A stretch of 64,000 bases of DNA, taken from positions 1,302,001 through 1,366,000 of the forward strand of contig NZ_CP019082.1 in assembly GCF_001956985.1 (NCBI RefSeq), written 5' to 3'. A program made the translations under genes and the position numbers. Positions 2,582-54,247 of the stretch are shown in pieces; within the stretch, counting starts at the first letter, position 1, and each line of letters begins with the position of its first letter. The notes below the pieces were generated by a model that did not search any database, was not told the DNA's origin, and worked only from the letters and a program-made list of their open reading frames with translations. The stretch comes from Paludisphaera borealis. GTDB taxonomy: Bacteria > Planctomycetota > Planctomycetia > Isosphaerales > Isosphaeraceae.

Positions 2582-3271
2582 GTGGGTGGGCCGCGAGCGG
2601 CTGACTTCGATCCGCCACAGGTTCGCCCAGAGTCGGGGCGATGCGAGGCTTTGCGCCGTCACCGAAATCCCATCACGCTGAGACCGCGGTCCAGGTCGAT
2701 GGGGTGGGCGAGAAGAAGAAGCAGGCGCCGCCTCCGATACGTCCGTCTTCACACATGGCGTGTTCCAACGGGTGGCATCGGAAAACTCGTCCCCCCCGGG
2801 AAGGAGGGCGAGTGGGAGCACCAGGGTCAGTGTCGGCGACGCCTGCTCGTCCAAGGAAACCGGACACGATCCGACGTCACGACGGTCATCGTGCTCGGTC
2901 GTTATGAAAGCTTTCGGCCCCCGCCGGCCGCTTTCATCAATCGATTCAGCCGAATTTCGCGGTTCTCGCGGCTCCGTGCTCCCGGCCGAGCGCGTGCCGC
3001 GTCGTCGAAGAGCCGTCACGGAATCCGCCGCGTTCCAGCCGGCCCGGACGACCACCCACGAGTCGACCGGGCGTTGCGCGCCGGTCCGCGCGGGGGCCGT
3101 CGCGCTCGGTCGCCGATCACCTGGAGGTACGCCGACGACCAACGGCCGGACGACCCGTCTAGCGGGCGTCGTCCGACCGATCGAGTTGTCCCTATCCGTC
3201 ACCATCATGGAAGGACGTCCCGAGGAGCGTGCGCAAGGGAAAGCCGCCTGTTCCGACAACCAGCGGGGGAG
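2582..3271. other. Intergenic region between convergent genes
   Basis: These 690 bases lie between the ends of two convergent genes. Long frames cross it on both strands but their translations are rich in Arg, Pro and Ser and look like GC-driven noise. The only structure I see is the imperfect inverted repeat at 2904-2937. Confidence 0.5.
2904..2937. terminator. Terminator-like hairpin in a convergent gap
   Basis: ATGAAAGC (2904-2911) pairs perfectly with GCTTTCAT (2930-2937); inside it CGGC (2915-2918) pairs with GCCG (2923-2926). It lies between two converging genes and could end transcription from both sides. There is no T-run beyond either arm, so it may be only a structural element. Confidence 0.35.
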
Positions 3272-4585
3272 CTACTTCGGCTGCCTCAAGCGGGTGAAAA
3301 GCTGGCTGTAGGGCGCGTGGTCGTGCTCGCCCTCGGCCCGGACGTCCGCGCCGAACTCGGCCTCGGTCGCGTCCTCGACGCTCTCCAGGTCGAGTTCATC
3401 GTTCGTCCCGGAATCCGGATCGGCGTCCTCGGCGGGGTCGTCCGTCGATTCGGTCGTGGGGTTCAGACGCCCGCGATTCCGGGCCCACTCGGCCCAGGCC
3501 TGGAGCGCGGCGTAGCGGTCTTCGATCGTCTCCTCGCCGAGGGGAGCGGTCGCGACGGCCGTCTCGGCCGACTCGTCCAGCTCGCTCGCCACGATCGACG
3601 GAGTGTTCTCGGCGTCGAGGCTCCCGCTCCAGCCGACTTCGATGAGCCCCTCCTCCTCGCGAAGGGGGGGCCGACTTGGAACCAGCGGAGGCGGTTCGAG
3701 GATCGTTTCGGCGATCACGACCGGTGCCGGCCGGGCTTCGGGTCGCGTCACGGGCCGGGGCGACGCCTCCAGGCTCGGGCTCGACGCGGCCGCCTGGACT
3801 TGCCGAGCGGCAGGCTGAGGTTGGGCGGGGGCCGGGACGGACGGCGACGGCGTCGCCGAGCGGCCGAGCCCTCGGGTTTCCACCAGCCTCAGCAGCGTGC
3901 GGGGGTTGCCGGCGGCGTCGCGGTGCAACGGCTCGATCTCGGCGGCGTCGAGGCGGTCGGGACGGACTGAGGCCAGAAGCTGGGACGCTTCCTCGACGTC
4001 GAGGGGCGGTAGATGGATGTGCCCCGCCAGACGATTGGCCACAGTCTGGAGCGATCGGCCCGCAAACCGCCGCGTCAGCTCGGTCCGGCCGACCAGGAGG
4101 ACGGCCGCGAAACCGTGCTCCGCACGCGGGCTGCCGCAGGCGGAAAGGGCCTCGATCTCGGACCAGACTTCGGGAGAAGCGTGGTGGGCGTTCTCGACCA
4201 CCAGAACCCATGACCGGCCGTCGGCCGACTCGTCCTGGAGGGCCGAGGCGATCGCCAGGCGATTCGTCGCGAGCCGGTCCGAGGCCGCGACCCCAAACTG
4301 CGACGCCGTCAGGCTGAGGAAGTCCACGGGGTCGAGCGCCGGGGCGGCCTGGACGACGGCGAACCGCCAGCCTGAGGGCAGCTCGTCGGCGAGGCGTCCC
4401 CAGAGGCGCGTCTTGCCGGCTCCAGACTCGCCCGTGATCAGGATCGGTCCGGCGGCCTTCGACCCGAGGGTCGTCGACCTGAGCGATTCCAATGCTGCGC
4501 GACGGCTGGTGACGTCGAGGCGATCAGGACGGCCGGGGACTTCACGGATCTCTCGATTCAGGGTGATGCGCCGACTTCGCTCCAT
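3272..4585 (-). CDS. ExeA-like AAA ATPase with long acidic C-terminal tail
   Basis: This encodes 437 residues. The N-terminal half is a P-loop ATPase: Walker A GESGAGKTRLW at about residue 50, Walker B-like WVLVVENAHH, and a later ELTRRF segment in the sensor position, similar to the AAA_22/ExeA group. From about residue 255 the chain becomes Pro/Ala-rich and then acidic (EDADPDSGTNDELDLE), with no visible domain. I start it at the ATG at 4585, since a T-rich, low-complexity leader lies upstream and the Walker A falls at the expected distance. The same frame stays open to 7051, but that part is antisense to the kinase and accA. The gene is divergent from the kinase; the role is unknown. Confidence 0.7.
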   Translation of the reverse strand: MERSRRITLNREIREVPGRPDRLDVTSRRAALESLRSTTLGSKAAGPILITGESGAGKTRLWGRLADELPSGWRFAVVQAAPALDPVDFLSLTASQFGVAASDRLATNRLAIASALQDESADGRSWVLVVENAHHASPEVWSEIEALSACGSPRAEHGFAAVLLVGRTELTRRFAGRSLQTVANRLAGHIHLPPLDVEEASQLLASVRPDRLDAAEIEPLHRDAAGNPRTLLRLVETRGLGRSATPSPSVPAPAQPQPAARQVQAAASSPSLEASPRPVTRPEARPAPVVIAETILEPPPLVPSRPPLREEEGLIEVGWSGSLDAENTPSIVASELDESAETAVATAPLGEETIEDRYAALQAWAEWARNRGRLNPTTESTDDPAEDADPDSGTNDELDLESVEDATEAEFGADVRAEGEHDHAPYSQLFTRLRQPK

Positions 4586-50214: not shown

Positions 50215-51768
50215 ATGACCAATCTGACCCCCGAACAGCGCCTGATGGGCCGAGAGAACGCGGACCGGGCTCTTGGCGTCTCGCGACGCGACTGGCTGAT
50301 CGCGGCGTCCGCGACCCCGGCGATCGCCGGCTACTACTTCGGCTACAAGGGCCTTGGCGAGAAGCCGCCGGTCAAGGCGGCGATCATCGGCACCGGCGAC
50401 GAAGGCTGCCAGGCGATGATCCGGTTCCACAACCGCGACTACATGAACTTCGTCGGCTTCTGCGACATCCGGCCGACCCAGCAGGAACGCGCGGTCAAGG
50501 AGTTCACGAACCACAAGCAGTACTCCGAGGCCGACGTCCGCAAGCTCAAGCAGTACAAGTCCAAGGAGGAGATGTACAAGGACCCTGAGGTCGAGGTGGT
50601 CGTCATCGCCCTCCCCTTGTGGCTGCACGCGCCGGTCGCCATCGAGGCGATGAAGGCCGGCAAGCACGTCTTCACCGAGAAGCTGATGGCGCACTCGGTG
50701 GCCGAGTGCAAGGAGATGTGCCGGGTCGCCCGCGAGACCAACAAGCTGCTGGCCGTCGGCCACCAGCGCCATTACTCGGCCCTGTACGACAACGCCAACT
50801 TCCTGCTCTCCAGCGGCGTGCTCGGCGACGTCCGCCACATCCGCGCCCTCTGGCACCGCAACAACGCCCAGCCGCTCGTGGCCAAGGACAAGGACGGCCA
50901 GCCCCTCTACGATCCGGCGACCGGGCTTCCCCAGTACGTCCACGACGAGAAGGGGAACCTCGTCTATCGCGATAGCTGGAAGCGCCAGTATCCCGATAAG
51001 GACACGGGGATCGACTACGCGGCGTACGGCTACAAGAGCCTGGACGAGCTGATCAACTGGCGGCTCTACAAGCGCACCGGGGCCGGCATCATGGCCGAAC
51101 TGGGGAGCCACCAGCTCGACGCCTGCTCGATCTTCCTCGGCAAGCAGCACCCGCTAGCCGTCACCGGCGTCGGCGGCACGTACTTCTACAAGGACGGTCG
51201 CGAGGCTGACGACCACGTCTTCACGATCTTCGAGTTCCCCGGCCAGACCGAGAAGGACAAGATCGTCGTCACCTACTCGTCGATCAACACGAACGCGTTC
51301 GACGGCTACGGCGAGATGGTCATGGGCTCGAAGGGGACGATGATCGTCGCCACGGAGAAGGAGATTCTTCTCTACAAGGAAGCCGGCGCGGCGTTCGCCT
51401 CGCGAACGACGAGCGTGACGGTCGACACGCAGAACAAGAAGCCGGTGCTCGAAACCAGCCCCAGCACCGCCGGCCCGAGCGCCGCGACGGCCATCGGCGC
51501 CCTGGCGACCGCCGACCCCTCGCGCGGTTATCGCGAGGAGCTGGAGCACTTCGCCTACTGCATCCGCCACGGCGACGCGTCCAACTACCACGCCGACAAG
51601 GACCACCAGCCGCGCTGCCGCGGCGAAGTCGCCCTCGCCGACGCCGTCATCGCGCTGACCACCAACATCGCCATGCACGAAAACCGCCGGATCGAGTTCG
51701 ACCCCAAGTGGTTCGACTACACCTCCGACGCCGTCCCCGACGGCTCCGGCTCGATCGCCAAGGGCTGA
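50215..51768 (+). CDS. Gfo/Idh/MocA family oxidoreductase, Tat-exported
   Basis: This encodes 517 residues, the largest of three such proteins here. The signal is SRRDWLIAASATPAIAGYY, then the Rossmann start VKAAIIGTGDEGCQAMIR, LPLWLHAPVAIEAMKAGKH and TEKLMAH, where Leu replaces Pro of the usual EKP. The C-terminal domain has GAGIMAELGSHQLDACSIF. It starts 54 bases after the DoxX gene, on the same strand, after AAGGAG, so the two may work together. Substrate unknown. Confidence 0.9.
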   Translation: MTNLTPEQRLMGRENADRALGVSRRDWLIAASATPAIAGYYFGYKGLGEKPPVKAAIIGTGDEGCQAMIRFHNRDYMNFVGFCDIRPTQQERAVKEFTNHKQYSEADVRKLKQYKSKEEMYKDPEVEVVVIALPLWLHAPVAIEAMKAGKHVFTEKLMAHSVAECKEMCRVARETNKLLAVGHQRHYSALYDNANFLLSSGVLGDVRHIRALWHRNNAQPLVAKDKDGQPLYDPATGLPQYVHDEKGNLVYRDSWKRQYPDKDTGIDYAAYGYKSLDELINWRLYKRTGAGIMAELGSHQLDACSIFLGKQHPLAVTGVGGTYFYKDGREADDHVFTIFEFPGQTEKDKIVVTYSSINTNAFDGYGEMVMGSKGTMIVATEKEILLYKEAGAAFASRTTSVTVDTQNKKPVLETSPSTAGPSAATAIGALATADPSRGYREELEHFAYCIRHGDASNYHADKDHQPRCRGEVALADAVIALTTNIAMHENRRIEFDPKWFDYTSDAVPDGSGSIAKG

Positions 51769-51787
51769 GGAAGTTCCGACCATCGTG

Positions 51788-51824
51788 AACGGCGGCGGAC
51801 AAGAAAGCGTCGTCCGCCGCCGTT
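51788..51824 (+). terminator. Terminator-like hairpin after the third Gfo/Idh gene
   Basis: AACGGCGGCGGAC (51788-51800) pairs perfectly with GTCCGCCGCCGTT (51812-51824), loop of 11 bases, 20 bases after the stop. The sequence then turns A/T-rich (AAATATAG). No T-run, but position fits a terminator and marks the border of the AT-richer insert. Confidence 0.6.
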
Positions 51825-52052
51825 AAATATAGATATCCAGGTAATCGTTTGTCCTACTCGAGCTACAGGACCTTAACTCATTGACTTGAGTCCGGTTGAC
51901 CGAATGCTCAAGATTTCACGTAGAGTCAGCCTCCGTATCGCTTTCGTTGATGGCATATGCTTAGGTCAGTCGAGCTCCGATGGCAGATATGCCAAAAGGA
52001 TGTTGTGGCGGAATGATAGAGAAAGTCCACTGCAGCACCCGCCAAGCCATCA

Positions 52053-52571
52053 TCATTTGAGTTTTGATAGCAGCATAAGCTCTTGTACAGCAGTTCTTAG
52101 ATCGTGCCTGATCTCGTCAATGTCTCCGCGTACAGCAATGAACCTTCGGTTGTGGGCTGATTTATCACCAATGTCCTTCAGTTTCGGCAAAGCTCTCTTC
52201 GTGTTTCGGCCCAGATTCCAGGAGGGCTCGGAGAGGGCTATTGAAATTAAATCACGTAAGTAAAGGAAATCGCCTTGTGGATTCTTGATTTTCTGTGCGA
52301 TGGAGTGAGCTTCGAATGCCTCGATAATAAGGGTCTCAAGGAGTCTTCTTATCATCACTGCGCAAGAATCGTACCATCCATTTTCGTAACAGCCATTGAT
52401 TTGGTAGACGATTTTTTCAATATAGGCTCTGGAGTTTTTTACCAATGCGTGGAAAACGACCATCTCACTCTTGGGCGGACAGCCCTCGGAGGGTGGGATC
52501 CACTCTTTCGGTGCGGCCTCTTGAAGTTTTCTGGCAAGTCCGAGGGCGCTTTGGAGATTATCCGCGTTCAC
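52053..52571 (-). CDS. DUF4145-like (HEPN-related) protein
   Basis: This encodes 172 residues, all helical and cytosolic. The core is YENGWYDSCAVMIRRLLE, LIIEAFEAHSIAQKIKN and ALPKLKDIGDKSAHNRRFIA, the pattern of DUF4145-type proteins, which are placed in the HEPN group and found in restriction and defence loci. The common HEPN RNase motif R-x4-6-H is not plain here. Codon use and base composition are A/T-richer than neighbours, a sign of transfer. Its first codons overlap the end of the upstream gene by 14 bases, so both are co-expressed. Confidence 0.7.
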   Translation of the reverse strand: MNADNLQSALGLARKLQEAAPKEWIPPSEGCPPKSEMVVFHALVKNSRAYIEKIVYQINGCYENGWYDSCAVMIRRLLETLIIEAFEAHSIAQKIKNPQGDFLYLRDLISIALSEPSWNLGRNTKRALPKLKDIGDKSAHNRRFIAVRGDIDEIRHDLRTAVQELMLLSKLK

Positions 52572-53289
52572 TTACATCGCCCCTATTGTATAGATGCTTG
52601 GCCATGCTAGAGAAGATCTGGTCAATCTGATCGGGAGTGGCATCGGATGAGATGTGAACCTGAATGTTCAAGTGAATGTCGGGCTGACGGGAGTGCCGGG
52701 GCTTCTGTTCGGTGAGAGTATTGACGTGAGCCTCCCGAGCTGTCTCCGTGTCGGGTTGGTGGTCTTTCACGCCTGCTTTGCCAGTTGTGTTTTTCTTAAG
52801 TGCCCCGTTTTTCGTCGTCTTGGTAGATTGTTCTTTGTTGTTGTCGCTTGCTTTGCCCTTGCTCAAGTCCGCCTCACAGAGCGTGATGTAGAATGCGGAG
52901 TATTTGCGAATCAGTGCCTCCCCTCCTCCCGTGTGGTTGGCAAACCACCTTCCGATCTGAACGCGATCCACATTCTCATCAGATCCAATGTCACGTAGTT
53001 CTTCGGGATACACGCGATCAAGTATGATTTTGCAAACCTGAGTATATTGCGCGTCGTCCCGCCACTTCCTCGCCAAATCGGTTGGTTTTCCGCTTTCATC
53101 AATCAGCCCAGTCGTTCGGAGACTCGGAATGATATTGGCCTGAGCTGATTGTTCAGTCATCGCCAGCACGGTCGATAGATAGTTTGCGCTAACGGTCCCT
53201 GGGATGGATCTGCGAAATCTATCCCGTAGGATCCACCAATGTTTAACCGGCAGAACCGGGAATGATCGTGGAACTAGCACGTCGGCCAT
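52558..53289 (-). CDS. DUF5343-like protein
   Basis: This encodes 243 residues. Residues 1-140 look like a winged-helix domain (HWWILRDRFRRSIPGTVSANYLSTVL, IIPSLRTTGLIDESGKPTDLARKWR), as in DUF5343. A Lys/Thr-rich linker (145-200) leads to a conserved-looking end, IHLNIQVHISSDATPDQIDQ and IFSSMAKHLYNRG. The ATG at 53289 has AGAGGTG upstream. It overlaps the DUF4145-like gene by 14 bases. Composition is A/T-richer than the flanks. Role unknown; the pair may be a defence or toxin-antitoxin-like module, which is inference. Confidence 0.65.
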   Translation of the reverse strand: MADVLVPRSFPVLPVKHWWILRDRFRRSIPGTVSANYLSTVLAMTEQSAQANIIPSLRTTGLIDESGKPTDLARKWRDDAQYTQVCKIILDRVYPEELRDIGSDENVDRVQIGRWFANHTGGGEALIRKYSAFYITLCEADLSKGKASDNNKEQSTKTTKNGALKKNTTGKAGVKDHQPDTETAREAHVNTLTEQKPRHSRQPDIHLNIQVHISSDATPDQIDQIFSSMAKHLYNRGDVSERG

Positions 53290-53582
53290 CGCTCTGCACC
53301 TCTGAGTAAGTGACTGCGGCACGGTCCGAATTTACAGGCACGTTAAGTCTGCATCGCCAAGGACTGGTGTGGCACTACGCCGCGTATCATCGCTTCGAAC
53401 TCTGCAAGGATTTAAACAATCCGCCACGGGTTGAGAGTGACACGGCCCTTGGATGCTATTATGCAGCTGCAAGGGGGCGCATCGCAACGGCTCAAAACCA
53501 GAAAAGACGACAGGATGGGTACACGGCCTCATGCCGGAAATGCATTCGTACCCATGTCGTTCGCATGGCGGGCAGGCTCCGC

Positions 53583-54247
53583 CTAATCTGGATCATGCTC
53601 TTGCGACATCACCACGATTACCTCAAGAGTGCGCGGGCCGTGGACGCCTTCGACGCGGTTGAGTTCGATATCGGAGGTGGCCGACGGTCCCGAGATGAAC
53701 GTGATCGGGCGATCGGGGGACGCGGCGGCGGCTTGAAGTTTGGCGACCGCTTCGGGGACGAGGCCGACGACCTGGTGCTCGAAGATCACACAGAGGTGGT
53801 AGTCGGGCAGGAGCGTGATCGCGCGGCGGCCCTGGCCGGGGCCGCTGTCGAGGACGACGGTCCCCGTCTGGGCGATCCCCAGGGCGCAGGCGGTCAGGAC
53901 GCCGTCGCTGTGTTCGAGCTGGTCGATGGTCAGGCCCGGCTCGCGGACGAGCGTCAAGCCGGCCGGCACCCAACCTTCGGGGAGGTCGGCCGGGATCACG
54001 AGCTTTTGAATCCCCTGCGCGGCGCACGATTCGGCGATGGCGCGCGGCAGGTCGTCGGCGGTCGTCGTCTTCACCTTTGCCCGGTATTCGCCCACGCGTT
54101 CGATGAACTGGTGGATCATCGCGGCGCGCGGCGACGGGTCGATCGTGAGGTACGACCGCTCGACCTTCACGTCTTCGGGTTTCTCGGCGGTGGGAACGTC
54201 CTTCAGGGCCGTGCGAATGCGGCCGAGGATGGTTTCTCGCGACTGGC

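Follow-up and report, generated by a model that had tools for sequence, protein, structure and literature searches.

A DUF5343 and DUF4145-like HEPN gene pair in Paludisphaera borealis as a candidate variant of the predicted defence system PDC-M34

The window analysed here, a 64-kb stretch of the Paludisphaera borealis genome to which all plain coordinates refer, carries two small genes, A and B, on an acquired AT-rich insert. The two genes form a real module: a homologue of A is found directly upstream of B in all 30 loci of the window's type, an adjacency beyond chance. The pair is most likely a variant of PDC-M34, an anti-phage candidate predicted by PADLOC, in which the HEPN protein has been exchanged. 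The tail of A follows the type of the neighboring HEPN protein across otherwise unlike A proteins, and related copies of the pair travel as integron gene cassettes between bacterial families. The original prediction of a candidate defence or toxin module is thereby supported, with gene A identified as PDC-M34A; a defence or toxin function is putative.

The insert in Paludisphaera borealis and its two proteins

The nucleotide homology to three genomes of the same genus (G294, G295 and G296) is interrupted between 51761-51765 and 53603-53611, which delimits a foreign stretch of about 1.84 kb, as had been proposed when the two genes were described as an insert. The A-B pair has a GC content of 49.7% and 600-bp windows fully within the insert range from 46.8 to 53.8%, versus a mean of 66.4% (sd 2.8, minimum 54.5%) for such windows outside 51.7-53.65 kb. 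The pair is therefore A/T-richer than its neighbors, as stated originally, and the GC content of the insert is strongly below that of the surroundings. In G294, G295 and G296, the site is occupied by a citrate synthase gene (68-69% GC); such a gene adjoins the oxidoreductase gene that flanks the insert in 5/5 same-genus genomes examined; in G297 and G298, lutC is located farther off from this site. Taken together, the limits of homology and the citrate synthase gene of the relatives indicate that the foreign DNA with the pair has taken this gene's position. One citrate synthase gene is retained elsewhere in the window genome (G000:C1:5658932-5660035). At the edge of the insert, the terminator hairpin that had been called at 51788 is indeed a perfect 13-bp hairpin, but it lacks a T-run and a terminator scan makes no call there.

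A and B are each present as a single copy in the 7.65-Mb genome. A profile search detected A in 1/59 near genomes, which is the window genome itself, and among 294 genomes of the phylum (including the window's own) A was found in four and B in six. Given this rarity, a housekeeping function was rejected as the main reading.

Table 1 Features of the insert and the A-B pair (window coordinates)
Feature	Position	Strand	Remarks
Acquired AT-rich insert	51766..53602	.	between a Gfo/Idh-type oxidoreductase gene and lutC
Perfect 13-bp GC-rich inverted repeat, 11-nt loop	51788..51824	.	at the insert edge
Gene B, DUF4145-like HEPN protein, 172 aa	52053..52571	-	GTG start; overlaps A by 14 bp
B residues 132-140, KDIGDKSAH (invariant KxxGDxx[AS]H)	52152..52178	-	end of helix 122-140, position of the HEPN RNase motif Rx4-6H
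Gene A, DUF5343 protein with C-terminal tail (PDC-M34A), 243 aa	52558..53289	-	ATG start at 53289
A residues 1-147, helical N domain, winged-helix-like part at about residues 14-82	52849..53289	-	AlphaFold2 pLDDT mostly >90
A residues 148-202, disordered polar linker	52684..52848	-	pLDDT ~40-60; length and sequence vary (A alignment A3)
A residues 203-236, conserved tail, putative HEPN-docking element	52582..52683	-	conservation in A3; tail type tracks HEPN type

The reported overlap of the two genes was confirmed at 52558-52571. For A, an alternative GTG start is possible 33 bp farther upstream. The guess of a DUF5343-like protein proved correct, since A exceeds the Pfam gathering cut-off of this family (PF17278; 36.3 vs 27 bits, E 8e-9), and the PADLOC model PDLC04589 (PDC-M34A) matches A with E 7e-13, tail included. 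The AlphaFold2 model of A (overall pLDDT 80) agrees with the winged-helix-like part suggested earlier and shows a C-terminal helix in the tail, perhaps preceded by a strand, which is a guess. The likeness of the N part to winged-helix (wHTH) regulators is weak (Foldseek best E 0.23, VIA-align Z ≤4.7); no PDB match to A under E 0.001 was obtained with Foldseek, and PDB sequence searches with the profiles of A and B gave chance-level matches only. The conserved tail that had been pointed out in A proved to be its key feature: it holds six of the eight invariant columns of the A alignment (A3, without L031, L035, L036 and L048), in proteins that span about 205-243 aa.

In another planctomycete, a DUF5343-like domain matched by A with E 1.9e-4 is fused, by eye, to a Ser/Thr kinase and carries no tail (L016:10011-11384, G203:C13); the next gene, on the opposite strand, is IS110-like by eye. 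This fusion suggests that DUF5343 is an input domain with exchangeable outputs.

Protein B scores 20 bits against Pfam DUF4145 (PF13643; E 7.5e-4), just under the cut-off of 23.1 that is passed by relatives from a second clade, L045 (28.1 bits) and L049 (24.9 bits). Together with the AlphaFold2 model (pLDDT 93), in which B has a predicted HEPN helical-bundle fold, this bears out the earlier guess of a DUF4145-like HEPN protein. The model superimposes on the HEPN protein 2hsb with a VIA-align Z of 13.6 (rmsd 2.8 over 119 residues); the same list also includes Csm6, RnlA, AbiV and HepT, whose chains, at Z ~9, fall short of the decisive level for helical bundles. With Foldseek, no PDB match to B under E 0.001 was found (best E 0.03).

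The motif KxxGDxx[AS]H is present in 39/39 members of the B alignment (A2, without L018, L048, L055-L057 and L059), with K132, G135, D136 and H140 invariant. The canonical Rx4-6H of catalytic HEPN RNases, located where helix 3 ends, is absent there in all 39; H140 is kept and the residue at H-5 is a glycine. A later R-x4-6-H string is found in 18/39 members and is lacking in the B protein of the window. As the canonical arginine is replaced throughout, RNase activity of B is uncertain. Alternative active sites of some HEPN families are described in PMC3710099.

Conserved pairing and the match between tail and HEPN type

A scan of genome contigs with the B alignment retrieved 43 loci, of which 29 are of the window's type (type I), 11 belong to the second clade and three are partial. 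Scanning viral contigs with B added one contig carrying the pair (L060) and thus a 30th type-I locus; the same scan with A alone found no contig. According to the record titles, the 29 genomic type-I loci come from eight phyla, namely Planctomycetota, Verrucomicrobiota, Acidobacteriota, Chloroflexota, Synergistota, Gemmatimonadota, Bacteroidota and Pseudomonadota. The co-occurrence in unrelated phyla that had been asked of the pair is hence found, and its homologues are not mostly single genes tied to a fixed housekeeping neighborhood. Both genes are retained in the closest relatives, L017 and L018, with 51% and 57% identity in A and 72% and 66% in B. In 37 pairs of both clades, the distance from the A stop to the B start is -16 to +13 bp, values that are biased low since the B start nearest to the A stop was taken; the exception is 55 bp in L035.

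Only the tail of A is visible in L036, since the contig begins there, and L048 has frame breaks in B and in the extreme end of A. Five loci or more (L031, L035, L092, L093 and L112) combine an intact B with a broken A, so B alone does not appear to be strongly toxic. The tail-coding part is still open in four of these five broken A genes and out of frame in L035; some of the breaks are possibly assembly errors in drafts. The converse is seen in L114 (L122:2809-4043, G1002), where an intact A is directly followed by an IS3-like transposase gene (by eye) and B is missing.

A tblastn search with A and B gave no match in 72,556 plasmid or 50,697 phage records. Of the A proteins with a Swt1-type partner, two had no plasmid match in tblastn and one of these no phage match either. 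A typical phage or plasmid gene was ruled out in these collections on the basis of the absent record matches.

The second clade (L044-L047, L049-L054 and L059) is found in candidate phyla, Chloroflexota, Nitrospirota and others. Its HEPN protein, B', has an additional N-terminal domain, and the two B' proteins tested both exceed the DUF4145 cut-off. The small gene that precedes B', termed A', differs from A: by eye, its product begins with a hairpin-helix and ends in a wHTH-like part. The hairpin-helix mostly reads 'LPDGTxIxIEG..EEVxKLL'; the upstream gene of L046 is strongly diverged (21% identity). The profile comparison of A and A' gave nothing significant (E 0.08), so a kinship between A' and the tail of A is merely hinted at, and L045 and L049 have no PADLOC match. 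One suggestion is that the second clade works on a comparable principle, its tail lying at the opposite end.

PDC-M34 resembles the window pair in its first gene, as 27/27 aligned A proteins match PDC-M34A, and also in gene order, in having a HEPN protein as the second gene and in tails of similar form. It differs in the second gene, which is a Swt1-like HEPN (PF18731) and not a DUF4145-like one, and in the tail subtype. Window B has no match to PDC-M34B at E ≤5 and 0/39 members of the B alignment match at E ≤0.01; PDLC04590, one of the three PDC-M34B models, was found in 0/20 genomes and 0/14 controls. As a positive check, four of four Swt1-type partners match all three PDC-M34B models and Pfam HEPN_Swt1. 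When 369 genomes from the class of one carrier were scanned for PDC-M34A, eight were positive, and in 8/8 the A gene is followed by a HEPN gene, three of the window type and five Swt1-like. On this basis, PDC-M34 is the combination of a DUF5343-tail protein with a Swt1-HEPN, and the window pair its HEPN-exchanged variant. The Swt1-type partners have R-x4-H in 5/5 cases (including L005). A profile comparison of the DUF4145-type and Swt1-type HEPN proteins revealed no significant sequence homology (E 0.08). No paper naming DUF5343 or PDC-M34 was found in the literature searched.

Other known systems were compared with the pair. The DUF4145 (PF13643) branch shares the HEPN fold and a weak profile match with B; its contexts, as given in PMC3710099, include R-M, McrBC and AbiJ-NTD. 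In contrast, window B is below the Pfam cut-off, stands alone as a protein, has a DUF5343 partner and carries KxxGDxx[AS]H in place of Rx4-6H. The MNT-HEPN system (MntA-HepT) likewise consists of two small adjoining genes with a HEPN effector of comparable fold, but the partner in the window pair is DUF5343 plus tail. No nucleotidyltransferase match to A was obtained in Pfam or in PDB sequence searches, and the fold look-up gave weak values (Z ≤4.7).

The A proteins that precede a DUF4145-type HEPN have three types of N-domain: W, which is the type of the window, Y, and X (L039). X has no Pfam match; the Y-type proteins match PDC-M34A and, among the types, come nearest to the DUF5343 domains found in A proteins with a Swt1-type partner. 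The N-domains share 20.5% identity between W and Y and 13-14% between X and either of them, versus 67% (W-Y) and 73% (X-Y) in the tails. Comparing Swt1-partnered A proteins with Y gives 25.7% for the N-domains and 22% for the tails, and their tails share 23% with those of W. These values refer to 41 tails and 40 N-domains, without L031, L035, L036, L048, L093 and L112 (broken or cut) and L095 (a duplicate of L022), with only the tail of L092, and with L114 kept despite its lost B. The type of the tail thus tracks the type of HEPN protein and not the N-terminal domain of A.

A profile of the tail alone, run against 398 genomes from the phylum of the same carrier as in the PDC-M34A scan, gave 11 matches, two of them in genomes already found by that scan. 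Ten are credible and nine of these precede a HEPN gene (four DUF4145-type, five Swt1-type), the tenth being L114 with its transposase gene. The match in L121 (E 0.005) lies inside an unrelated gene and was dismissed as chance. In the tree of B, the N-domain types are clustered and nevertheless require five changes, versus a minimum of three over four groups, and L039 (X) joins L038 (Y) with support 87/82. This is a coarse result with unsettled bootstrap, from a tree without L048, L055 and L059 and without L056 and L057, which have no full frame; L036 is labelled W though its N domain is cut by the contig end. Since the tail follows the HEPN type across unlike N-domains, we infer that it docks to the HEPN protein. 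An economical reading of these sequence comparisons would be that tail and HEPN form a docking pair and that the input, the N domain, can be exchanged, which the tail-less kinase fusion of L016 fits.

Integron carriage and genomic surroundings

The copies of Shewanella (L028) and Bowmanella (L031) are 94% identical over 1271 bp, and nothing alignable between these loci (E 1e-10) extends beyond the pair with 44 bp upstream of A and 5 bp downstream of B. L028 and the Halomonas copy (L034) share 90% over 1262 bp plus a separate 62-bp match that scored attC-like in both loci, at a low score. Horizontal transfer between bacterial families has thus occurred as a unit, with homologous DNA of roughly the pair alone (~1.26 kb). 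For the Swt1 type, L090 and L091 share 92% over 1231 bp; in L090, a TIR-domain gene (by eye; 2774-3616, reverse strand) directly follows the pair. The dN/dS ratios of 0.10 (B) and 0.12 (A) between L028 and L034 indicate purifying selection; eight pairs were tried, with synonymous sites mostly saturated, and both genes were measurable in L028/L034 alone.

The ends of the pair resemble integron attC sites. A covariance model built from 16 sites with a hand-written 7-pair structure gave 40 matches at E ≤1, in the orientation of the pair, in 12/46 sources (482 kb), 16 of them being the training sites, versus three matches in 35 control sources (462 kb). Matches adjoin the pair after B in L018 (4153), L025 (1954), L030 (7493), L031 (7512), L033 (7487), L034 (4100) and L116 (2172), and upstream of A in L028 (6200), L031 (6160), L034 (2783), L092 (1377) and L090 (2140, minus, E 0.39); the sites of L025, L028, L030, L033 and L116, the downstream site of L031 and the upstream site of L034 belong to the training set. 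Arrays are seen in L034 (13 matches) and L029 (eight). A scan by regular expression and energy was noisy, near or below the shuffled background in many loci; a narrower scan of the 130 nt after B was positive at 6/52 sites versus 15/1260 random windows. The integron integrase model TIGR02249 scored above cut-off in 10/21 genomes, a set without that of L092, and in 0/14 controls. In L028, the integrase gene and the pair share a contig, the integrase being 7.6 kb upstream. No integrase above cut-off was found in the genomes of L030, L034 and L116, of which the L034 genome is a draft and has the longest array.

In the near-identical cassettes of L028, L031 and L034, homology stops 5-6 bp past the B stop; the sequence downstream differs and is attC-like in L031 and L034. 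An integron cassette is expected to retain its own attC.

The 64 kb of the window contain no attC match at E ≤1, and the integrase model stays below cut-off in the window genome (G000), which places the window copy outside an integron. One of the two closest pairs is that of the planctomycete MAG L018; here, an attC-like site (E 0.04) is present and an integrase is encoded on a different contig, which makes an integron source of the window copy plausible. Anti-phage integron cassettes have reportedly been described by Kieffer and by Darracq. The attC-like bounds of the pair in several Pseudomonadota and one Planctomycetota MAG (L018) resemble such cassettes and those with HEPN genes, whose existence is stated in PMC3710099; the window copy, without attC match or above-cut-off integrase, differs from them. 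The claim of a mobile accessory pair accordingly holds, by its presence in a single near genome and its carriage as a cassette elsewhere.

As to defence islands, which had been suggested as a place to look, defence genes lie near some copies, but restriction or defence genes were identified near a minority of the 26 loci sampled, and the window copy sits between metabolic genes. The sample covers 26/30 loci (all except L018, L023, L026 and L031) and neighbor genes that are longest-ORF guesses. In total, 145 neighbors match 194 PADLOC families at 1e-10, versus 19 families, including PDC-S01, AriA and TIR effector models, for 141 control proteins from 13 stretches of the carrier genomes; this ratio is inflated, as single proteins match up to 44 families. 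Of ten neighbors picked by eye, seven have PADLOC matches, one of the seven being a RecQ-like helicase, maybe a housekeeping protein; a DrmD-like protein, a type I methyltransferase (twice), Vsr and NsnA/PD-T4-2 are among the matches. The neighbors support a defence link by association only.

Possible function of the pair

The reading that we favor, and hold to be rather probable, is that A and B form a mobile sensor-effector unit with a likely abortive or defensive output. The winged-helix-like DUF5343 domain of A would serve as the exchangeable input, and the tail at the end of the linker would bind the neighboring HEPN protein, holding B inactive or poised. On sensing phage infection, the presumed trigger, or a related stress, A might release or activate B. 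Like other HEPN proteins, B would then attack or bind RNA, so that growth stops.

The chief rival, less probable though to be taken seriously, is a type II toxin-antitoxin (addiction) module, in which the winged helix of A represses the operon and the tail neutralises the toxin B, the main role being the stabilisation of integron arrays and islands and not phage sensing. Type II antitoxins typically combine a DNA-binding domain, a flexible linker and a short tail, in a characteristic gene order and with gene overlap, a plan to which the order, overlap, DNA-binding-like domain, linker and conserved tail of the pair conform. The integron carriage fits as well, and Anantharaman 2013 places HEPN proteins both in toxin-antitoxin systems and in integron cassettes. 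With the tail-coding part open in 4/5 broken A genes, neutralisation could be achieved by the tail alone; however, B is also intact in L035, where even the tail is out of frame, and the intact A without B in L114 speaks against simple addiction. Usual antitoxins are smaller than A (~205-243 aa), which is oversized for this role, and its N domain varies between very different types. A regulatory pair, with B as a non-catalytic, RNA- or protein-binding HEPN and A as a DNA-binding regulator, both tuning other genes, appears improbable. The loss of the canonical Rx4-6H arginine would suit it, as would the weak resemblance of the modelled A to wHTH regulators, and non-catalytic HEPN regulators such as MtlR are known from Anantharaman 2013. 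Yet K132, G135, D136 and H140 do not vary even between distant lineages, a constancy that fits an active site, the Swt1-type partners of related A proteins keep their Rx4H, and the neighboring genes vary between loci, so that no fixed target operon is seen. That the insert is neutral or decaying, with no present function in the window genome, is very improbable: the copy is single and off-integron and the citrate synthase gene of the relatives is missing at the site, but neither reading frame is broken or shortened, and the pair is retained in L017 and L018.

Beyond the favored sensor-effector reading, a plug-and-socket immune architecture may be sketched, tentatively and with considerable doubt. 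The short tail module, instead of a domain, would define a superfamily of two-gene systems, in which very different sensors could be wired to any one of several HEPN effectors, tail and HEPN stay matched while the sensor is swapped, and integrons shuffle the units across phyla; the DUF4145-type effector would then be an enzyme that attacks RNA through a new HEPN active site built on lysine.

These results define a widespread module, open to testing, in what was an anonymous gene pair of 'unknown function', and extend the unvalidated defence candidate PDC-M34 to a second HEPN family that is missed by the PADLOC models 2.0.0. They predict that the HEPN effector under the control of a given sensor is specified by a tail of about 30 residues. 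Should this be true, the tail could be used to find more sensor-effector pairs.
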